Assembly: GCF_037975445.1 (NCBI RefSeq)
Contig: NZ_CP150254.1
Location: forward strand, 2,850,001 to 2,914,000
Origin: Peribacillus sp. FSL P2-0133
Lineage (GTDB): Bacteria; Bacillota; Bacilli; Bacillales; DSM-1321
Direction of reading: 5' to 3'
DNA length: 64,000 nucleotides
In this document: positions 17,056 to 39,250 of the stretch, piece by piece
How the letters are laid out: every line of letters begins with the position of its first letter
How positions within the stretch are numbered: the stretch's first letter is position 1
Notes under the pieces: generated by a model
What the model was told of the DNA's origin: nothing
What the model saw: the letters and a program-made list of their open reading frames with translations, nothing else
Databases searched by the model: none
Position numbers and translations under genes: made by a program

Positions 17056-17252
17056 AGTTTGTTTACAGTTTAATTTGTCCGTTAATTTCCACTCCAGGCA
17101 CTCGCTTTCCGCAGGAGTCCGTACATCCGCTCCAATCAACTTTGTTTTAACATTAAGATAGGACTCCTTATGCCTAAAGTCCTTTTTGTTTAAAATAGAA
17201 GAATTAAAACTGGAGGTGATATCTATTCAGCGAGATCAACTTTAAAAAATGA
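17056..17252. repeat. Dispersed repeat, long form (sister of 39034-39250)
   Basis: From the left: the degenerate hairpin arm GAGTTTGTTTACAG, the core CACTCGCTTTCCGCAGGAGTC, TCCAATCAACTTTGTTTTAA, AGAAGAATTAAA and CTATTCAGCGAGATCAACTT. The same blocks in the same order recur near 39.1 kb with divergent spacers. No coding content is supported. Confidence 0.7.
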
Positions 17253-18042: not shown

Positions 18043-18271
18043 CAAAAAACCGGCCTCAGAACGAGACCGGCTTTAACATTTAAAGATATAAGCCGCCATT
18101 GCCGTATTCAGTAAGAAAGTTTTAAACCACCACTCCTCAAAGTGGGTGTTTGCAGAAAAAATCCTGTTGTCCAAGTCAGTGACGAGGCATAACATTCCTG
18201 TTTCAATATAAAACTCCCTATTACAGCTTAAAGGTTAAAACTTTATTATCATTACGAACAGTGCAGCTTGT
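18043..18271 (-). ncRNA. Candidate structured RNA, about 230 nt, 6S-like layout
   Basis: No open frame of note is present. On the minus strand TTGTAA (18301-18306), 17 bases and TATTAT (18278-18283) form a promoter. At the other end a hairpin, CCGGTCTC with GAGGCCGG (18050-18070), runs into TTTTTT; the single imperfect pair is a G-U wobble on this strand but C-A on the other, so it is built for the minus strand. The 5' AAGCTGC can pair with GCGGCTT just before the terminator. TCGTA/TACGG and a 10-bp GGGAGTTTTA/TAAAACTTTC stem lie inside, leaving a large bubble. This closing-stem, bubble and long-arm plan resembles 6S RNA, but I cannot confirm the family. Confidence 0.55.
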
Positions 18272-18277
18272 ATTATT

Positions 18278-18306
18278 ATAATACCTGTAATCCTCATAAG
18301 TTACAA
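18278..18306 (-). promoter_or_regulatory. Promoter of the candidate RNA
   Basis: TTGTAA at 18301-18306 and TATTAT at 18278-18283 on the minus strand are separated by 17 bases. The expected start is near 18271. Confidence 0.55.
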
Positions 18307-18402: not shown

Positions 18403-19884
18403 CTATTGATCAAAATAACCGATAAAATCCCCATGGTCTATATTTTGCAGATATAGTACCGTTTCTTTGTCAGAAATAGTAGGCAGTCCGAAATGTTGTT
18501 CATACCTCTCAATTCCTTTACCTGTAATGATAATCCAATCCCCTTCCTTTCCTGCTTGCAACGCCTCCTGTATAGCAAGTGTCCGATCTGGAATAACCTT
18601 CCCATTTACAGCAGAGTAATCGCTTTGGAGTTTATTTAGTGACGATTCCATCACCTCTATTCCCTCCGAATTCAGATCATCCATCGTCAAAATCGAAACA
18701 TCACTATGTTCCGATGATACTTTAACCATTTCAGCCCTTTTGGTTGTATCTCGTCCACCTCGGAAACCAAAAATATGATAAATCTTTTTGGCCCCGCATT
18801 CTTTGGCAGTTTGAAGCATATGTTGAATGGCATCTGCAGTGTGTGCATAATCGATGACTATTGTCGGTCCAAATTCTTTCTTATACATTTCAAATCTTCC
18901 TGGCACACCGGAAAATCGTTTCAGTGAAGTGAGGATTTCCTCTTTTGAAATTGGAAACATCTTCGCTACGGAATATGCAGCTGTTGCGTTATATAAATTA
19001 TGAAGTCCAGGTATAGGTAACATAATTTTCACAAAGTCATGATTCTCATTCAATAAAATAAAGGGGTTTATTGCAGTATTATAATTGGTGATGGTTAAAT
19101 CACAGTGATTGGATTTTCCAAATACAAAGGCACTGACATTCTTCTCCCGTAAGTATTCTTGTAGTTTTTCTCCCCAGAAATCATCCCCATTGATAATCGC
19201 AAGACCATTTGGTTTTAATTTTTCAAAAAGCAGTAATTTTGCCAGAAAATAATCCTCCATCGTACCGTGGAAGTCGAGATGGTCATGATACAAATTCGTG
19301 AAGACACAGAAATCAAATTCAATTCCTTCTAAACGGTATTGAGCTAATCCATGAGAAGACACTTCCATTATGACAACCATGTCCTGACTGGCTGCCAGCA
19401 AGGAATTCAGTTCCATGGTACCTGGAGTCGTATTATGGGAATCGACTTTGTTTCCATTGATAATATGATGTATCGTTCCAATGACGGAACAGGTTACCCC
19501 ATTCTCTTCTAATATTTGCTGAAGCATATAGCTAGTTGTGGTTTTTCCATTTGTGCCCGTAATTCCTATCATTATTTTTTGATTGCTGGGATCTCCATAA
19601 AACCTTTTGGCGATTAGCCCTAATGCTTTTCGGCTGTTCTCCACTCGTAAAAAAGGAACTTCCAATTCCTTAATATCGCGATTGCCAATCACAGCCGATG
19701 CCCCTAAACGAATTGCATCTTTAATGTAATTATGGCCATCGGACTTATATCCGGTTACGGCAACAAAAAGGTATCCCTTTTTAATTTCTTTAGAGTTATC
19801 GGTTACACCTGTGATGGATATATTTTCAACATCCTTCGGCATCTCCCCGTTTATTGCTTCTTTCAATATGTCTTTAAGGATCAT
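18403..19884 (-). CDS. MurE-like Mur ligase paralogue with altered specificity motif
   Basis: A protein of 493 residues starting MILKDILKEAINGEMPKDVE; the ATG at 19884 follows GGAG, and a further in-frame region upstream to 19995 lacks a ribosome site. The ATP loop GITGTNGKTTTSYML, the central YHDHLDFHGTMEDYFLAK with its carbamylated-lysine position, and the carboxy IDYAHTADAIQHM and GFRGGRDTTKRAEM blocks are all present. MurE adds the third residue of the peptidoglycan stem peptide. Meso-diaminopimelate enzymes carry DNPR near the carboxy end, while this one reads TMDDLNSEG, so diaminopimelate is probably not its substrate. It is not beside a dcw cluster. It may be a secondary ligase for another amino acid or pathway. 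Confidence 0.8.
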   Translation of the reverse strand: MILKDILKEAINGEMPKDVENISITGVTDNSKEIKKGYLFVAVTGYKSDGHNYIKDAIRLGASAVIGNRDIKELEVPFLRVENSRKALGLIAKRFYGDPSNQKIMIGITGTNGKTTTSYMLQQILEENGVTCSVIGTIHHIINGNKVDSHNTTPGTMELNSLLAASQDMVVIMEVSSHGLAQYRLEGIEFDFCVFTNLYHDHLDFHGTMEDYFLAKLLLFEKLKPNGLAIINGDDFWGEKLQEYLREKNVSAFVFGKSNHCDLTITNYNTAINPFILLNENHDFVKIMLPIPGLHNLYNATAAYSVAKMFPISKEEILTSLKRFSGVPGRFEMYKKEFGPTIVIDYAHTADAIQHMLQTAKECGAKKIYHIFGFRGGRDTTKRAEMVKVSSEHSDVSILTMDDLNSEGIEVMESSLNKLQSDYSAVNGKVIPDRTLAIQEALQAGKEGDWIIITGKGIERYEQHFGLPTISDKETVLYLQNIDHGDFIGYFDQ

Positions 19885-39033: not shown

Positions 39034-39250
39034 GACTGTAAAAATATGACCGTTTATTTCCACTACAGGCACTCGCTTTCCGAGGGAGTCTCGCCACTTC
39101 CGTTCCAATCAACTTTGTTTTAAAAATAGGAAAGAACTCCTTTTTTGCCTACAGTCTTTTTATAAATATAGAAGAATTAAAGCTTAATGTGATAAGGGTA
39201 CTTTCTAAACATTATTCTATTCAGCGAGATCAACTTGAAATGATTACTAT
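39034..39250. repeat. Dispersed repeat, long form (sister of 17056-17252)
   Basis: GGACTGTAAAAA, the core GGCACTCGCTTTCCGAGGGAG, TTCCAATCAACTTTGTTTTA, AGAAGAATTAAAG and TTCTATTCAGCGAGATCAAC follow in the same order as at 17.1 kb. The flanks 38798-39033 and 39251-39400 hold nothing else I can support. Confidence 0.7.

Follow-up and report, generated by a model that had tools for sequence, protein, structure and literature searches.

6S RNAs are small RNAs that look like an open promoter and keep RNA polymerase in check. In vivo, 6S-2 of Bacillus subtilis associates with sigma-A RNA polymerase and is enriched on it in both growth phases, and 6S-1 also binds RNA polymerase with the housekeeping sigma factor (PMC11077062). 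Release of 6S-1 is brought about by its pRNA and a 'central bubble collapse helix', which the 3' strand of stem P2 forms after pRNA synthesis (PMC8876501). B. subtilis grows and sporulates almost normally when 6S-2 is deleted, and genomes of the Bacillus cereus group hold two 6S genes, ssrSA and ssrSB, which are arranged in tandem and cotranscribed (PMC7726162). In the literature that we searched (a set without the main B. subtilis 6S-2 studies Burenina 2014, Hoch 2016 and Wehner 2014), Peribacillus 6S RNA was mentioned only in one genome announcement, and the phrases 'third 6S RNA' and 'three 6S RNAs' did not occur.

We analyzed a 64-kb stretch of the genome of the soil bacterium Peribacillus sp. 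FSL P2-0133 (64,000 nt, hereafter the window), in which a first-pass annotation had proposed a structured RNA gene with a 6S-like plan and had suggested a covariance search as a check. This search yielded a full-length 6S RNA (RF00013, model positions 1-187) on the minus strand, scoring 80.6 bits and hence well above the gathering score of 46.4 (E = 2.8e-14 for the 64-kb window), and RF00013 was the only Rfam family reached in the window at the family cut-offs. We refer to the gene as 6S-3 (Table 1). A MurE-type ligase gene (TIGR01085) lies upstream of it and is codirectional, and a YkuK-type RNase H-like gene (PF04308) is convergent with it, in agreement with the ykuK-like and murE-like neighbours that had been named from the letters. 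We are very confident that a 6S RNA gene with transcription of its own is located here, that it is the genome's third, and that it arose from a 6S-2 transcription unit duplicated into the ykuK/murE-like intergenic region. Family membership, the three copies, descent from 6S-2, the conserved promoter and terminator and purifying selection were computed directly. The position downstream of the codirectional murE-like gene would also suit some other structured RNA with a superficial 6S plan, such as a riboswitch, an antisense RNA or a 3' UTR element of that gene. However, this reading is extremely improbable in view of the full-length RF00013 match, the lack of any other Rfam family at cut-off within the window, the gene's own promoter and terminator and the location of its paralogue beside quite different genes.

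Table 1. Features of the 6S-3 locus (window positions; nt, position within the RNA)
Feature	Position	Strand	Remarks
6S RNA '6S-3', 6S-2 paralogue, 187 nt	18086..18272	-	RF00013 full length; 167/187 positions invariant, 15 species
Sigma-A-type promoter: -35 TTGTAA (18306), 17-nt spacer, -10 TATTAT (ends 18278)	18278..18306	-	kept in 15 orthologues
Intrinsic terminator, 13-bp stem then T-run	18046..18074	-	kept in orthologues
P2 3' strand GGUUUAAAACU, nt 145-155, resting partner nt 31-40	18118..18128	-	99.6% of cells paired
Predicted pRNA template AGUUUUAACCUUU, nt 31-43; predicted pRNA 5'-AAAGGUUAAAACU	18230..18242	-	position in 5' central bubble/P2 strand
Alternative strand GGGAGUUUUA, nt 55-64, pairs nt 149-158 when template occupied	18209..18218	-	conserved, invariant; predicted switch
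Alternative helix 3' partner UAAAACUUUC, nt 149-158, overlaps P2 3' strand	18115..18124	-	predicted pairing

The RNA had been described as framed by a promoter and an orientation-specific terminator, and both were recovered on the minus strand. Taken by itself the promoter is at chance level (3 promoter-like sites compared to 2.0 expected); across the 15 orthologues, however, it is retained, with 85% identity from -40 to -1 compared to 53% farther upstream. The retention of promoter and terminator in 15 species points to a unit of about 180-200 nt that is transcribed independently. The view that no gene lies inside holds insofar as we found no credible protein gene; a 40-aa ORF is nevertheless present on the same (minus) strand (window 18073-18195) and is probably a chance ORF.

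Some features of the surroundings were recorded as well. The MurE-type ligase gene (window 18403-19884) is located beside nitrate-related genes (a NarK-like transporter and nitrite reductase) and the ykuK gene, with no cell-wall cluster near it in the examined part of the window. Its named relatives belong to Peribacillus simplex, P. frigoritolerans and close strains, and the source genome is placed in the P. simplex/frigoritolerans group of Peribacillus. Upstream of ykuK, the sequence CACTCGCTTTCCGCAGGAGTC (window 17099-17119, genome 2867099) is part of an imperfect dispersed repeat with 5 genome matches at ≤3 mismatches (control 0); a second copy is found at genome 2889070 (window 39070-39090), and similar DNA occurs near ykuK in the relatives L109, L114 and L116. 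In genome G008, the ykuK gene beside 6S-3 gives a match in three overlapping pieces in different frames (L122, L123 and L124), one of them with internal stops, and therefore looks broken, or else reflects assembly errors.

For the number of 6S genes we counted RF00013 matches above cut-off across the whole genome (one 5.81-Mb contig). Three were found, with scores of 103.4 bits (position 4084958), 85.7 bits (2701007) and 80.6 bits (2868086, which is 6S-3). The highest-scoring copy adjoins hisS-aspS and holds the template complement of GUUCGGUCAAAACU, the published pRNA start of B. subtilis 6S-1 (PMC12005410); aspS flanks bsrA of B. subtilis too (PMC11077062). Because it lies beside aspS and carries the template for this pRNA, we assigned the copy at 4084958 to 6S-1. 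Neither the aspS neighbourhood nor the GUUCGGUCAAAAC pRNA template of the 6S-1 (bsrA) subfamily is present at 6S-3, as both belong to the copy at 4084958, and phylogenetic analysis splits 6S-3 from 6S-1 at 100/100 and nests it within 6S-2. The 6S-2 copy of the genome (2701007-2701194) is 167 kb away from 6S-3 and in opposite orientation. The two RNAs are 96% identical overall, with identical P2, predicted template (nt 31-43) and GGGAGUUUUA, and they share the same promoter/terminator layout; 6S-3 differs in its locus, and its closing stem and nt 29 have derived changes.

When all 6S copies of the genus other than 6S-1 were placed in a tree, the 15 copies with ykuK on one side and (usually) a murE-like gene on the other formed a single clade (88/78) nested among 6S-2 copies; this clade support argues with moderate strength for 6S-3 being one lineage. 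The site is occupied in 15 of 36 genus genomes. Since promoter, body and terminator are all conserved, the entire 6S-2-type transcription unit was copied. On the aspS species tree, 6S-3 occurs in a clade of 14 and also in G004, whereas G034 and an intervening clade of five (G013, G014, G018, G019 and G030) lack it. This distribution needs two changes, and therefore one gain with losses and two gains fit equally well. In G034, a close relative with both neighbours, the 275-nt intergenic region contains no recognisable 6S, and the RF00013 search gave just two 6S genes for the genome; 6S-3 is thus dispensable at least in this strain. A decayed 6S-3 copy in G034 was considered and rejected, as the intergenic region aligns poorly.

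Extra 6S-2 copies elsewhere in the genus are arranged as tandem pairs or triples (G009, G015, G025, G026, G027 and G035). In these tandem loci (L081:3001-3693, L083:3001-3450, L082:3001-3445, L088:3001-3446, L058:3001-3535 and L063), two or three 6S-2-type genes are located 50-160 nt apart at two different loci, and G026 holds four 6S genes in total including 6S-1. Another genus of the family has a partial 6S match (G041:C74:50398-50527; 29 bits and thus below cut-off) that follows a full 6S gene at a distance of about 120 nt and is possibly a decaying tandem copy. Across the order, three 6S genes were counted in 14 of 150 sampled genomes under stricter filters that may miss weak copies; third copies are therefore uncommon but recurrent.

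Next, we compared the conservation of the RNA with that of the DNA around it. Identity among the 15 orthologues amounts to 97.9% for the 187-nt body and, as for the promoter, to about 85% for the terminator, while the flanks diverge and are only 37% identical farther downstream. For ykuK, compared in 14 of the 15 genomes, identity is 93% over the whole gene and 84% for third positions. From the difference between the 6S-3 body on the one hand and ykuK third positions and flanks (37-53%) on the other we conclude that 6S-3 is under strong purifying selection; 6S-2 is comparable, with 97.1% identity in the same genomes. A redundant duplicate heading for decay, expressed or not and without a function of its own, would explain why 6S-3 is missing from G034 and from the clade of five, but it is hard to reconcile with the invariance of the body and with the retained promoter and terminator, and we regard it as very unlikely.

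In order to examine the structure we used 31 diverse 6S-2-type sequences and counted the pairs of the Rfam structure directly, because the RNAalifold consensus of this alignment mixed P2 with local hairpins and displayed covariation in one pair only. We observed 9 pairs changed on both sides compared to 5.1 in shuffles, and none of 500 shuffles reached this number. In the Rfam structure 84% of the paired cells are complementary, which drops to 40-49% when the structure is slid along the alignment. Four of the two-sided changes are located in the closing stem and four in the apical arm, the distal part of which is poorly paired (51%). Closing stem, central bubble and apical arm are therefore supported by the relatives. 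The closing stem it had pointed out, AAGCUGC with GCGGCUU, exists as described, with most positions invariant and compensatory changes close by. The resting stem P2 (AGUUUUAACC/GGUUUAAAACU) is almost invariant within the genus, and in other genera of the order it has undergone compensatory changes: a base swap in L153 and L162 and a deletion in L152. The single-sequence folding energy of 6S-3 is unremarkable and uninformative (z = -1.2); the evidence consists of the covariance model, conservation and covariation.

The predicted pRNA template occupies the site that reads GUUCGGUCAAAACU in the 6S-1 of the same genome. We infer nt 43 as the start nucleotide, so that the pRNA would begin with AAAGGUUAAAAC. 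A 10-bp stem had been proposed as the long arm of the RNA. Its complementarity, GGGAGUUUUA with UAAAACUUUC, is real; however, it is not a resting 6S stem but another way of pairing the P2 3' strand, which both helices share because AGUUUUA occurs twice. The strands are able to pair in 99.7% of cells across the 31 relatives, and as their columns never vary, no covariation can be obtained for this helix. In naked-RNA folding, the free 6S-3 RNA is predicted to form P2 (9.9 expected pairs) rather than the alternative helix (0.8). With the template blocked by a 14-mer pRNA the prediction reverses (0.0 for P2 and 10.5 for the alternative helix), and a pRNA of 9 nt on the template is predicted to let the alternative helix take over already, with 8.8 expected pairs. 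The same switch with the 14-mer is predicted for 40 of 48 6S-2-type RNAs of the order, which are related and not independent sequences, compared to 34 of 200 controls with nt 53-66 shuffled. Considering this predicted switch and the comparable collapse helix of 6S-1, GGGAGUUUUA/UAAAACUUUC is a candidate release-state helix. According to the folding models, the stem noted at first may thus belong to the release state, and this is more likely than its being the resting apical arm.

A mode of action can be outlined from the family and from these models. 6S-3 would mimic an open promoter, bind sigma-A RNA polymerase and compete with promoters. The polymerase would copy the 5' central bubble into a pRNA (predicted 5'-AAAGGUUAAAACU...), which would open stem P2; the freed P2 3' strand could then form a helix with GGGAGUUUUA at the base of the apical arm, and this refolding would release 6S-3. 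Because 6S-3 and 6S-2 share one and the same predicted template, the extra copy probably contributes more dosage or another timing of expression and not a new mechanism; judged by sequence, this is also its simplest role. We consider it doubtful that 6S-3 is a functional 6S RNA with a role diverged from that of 6S-2, in which a tighter P2 would lead to slower release or to a response to other NTP levels. In most 6S-3 copies P2 is predicted to be tighter owing to an A at nt 29 and a 3' flank shorter by one U, and the modeled preference for P2 over the alternative helix is 0.9 to 0.1 in most of them and about 0.2-0.7 in genus 6S-2. However, two 6S-3 copies (G017 and G004) lack the shift, some other tandem copies have it, and the differences are within the error of the energy model. 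Going further, 6S-2-type RNAs might contain a switch, built in and conserved, in which UAAAACUUUC toggles between P2 and the AGUUUUA repeat at the base of the apical arm and pRNA synthesis flips the RNA to a defined release state; with the resting state stabilised in 6S-3, the three 6S RNAs would provide graded release thresholds in one cell. This modeled scheme is speculative, and we rate it as rather unlikely.

Taken together, 6S-3 is an extra member of the well-known 6S family, an old 6S-2 duplicate kept almost unchanged in 15 species, and dosage or timing remains the simplest suggestion for its role. A lineage with three 6S genes and a relative lacking the third offer a natural comparison for the question of why some bacteria keep more than one 6S RNA, and the predicted release helix gives a specific target for mutation in 6S-2-type RNAs. 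With regard to known systems, B. subtilis 6S-2 (bsrB) is presumably the orthologue of Peribacillus 6S-2. The 6S-1 (bsrA) of Bacillus has the same family, size and overall plan as 6S-3 but is divergent in sequence, has its own pRNA and its place beside aspS, and is a separate gene of the genome. Like Peribacillus, the B. cereus group is a case of multiple 6S genes in one Bacillaceae genome; however, ssrSA and ssrSB form a cotranscribed tandem, whereas the third Peribacillus gene is dispersed and has its own predicted promoter and terminator. A precedent for more than two 6S genes is provided by Magnetococcus MC-1, an Alphaproteobacterium for which PMC7726162 cites four (Wehner et al. 2014) and which represents an unrelated duplication.
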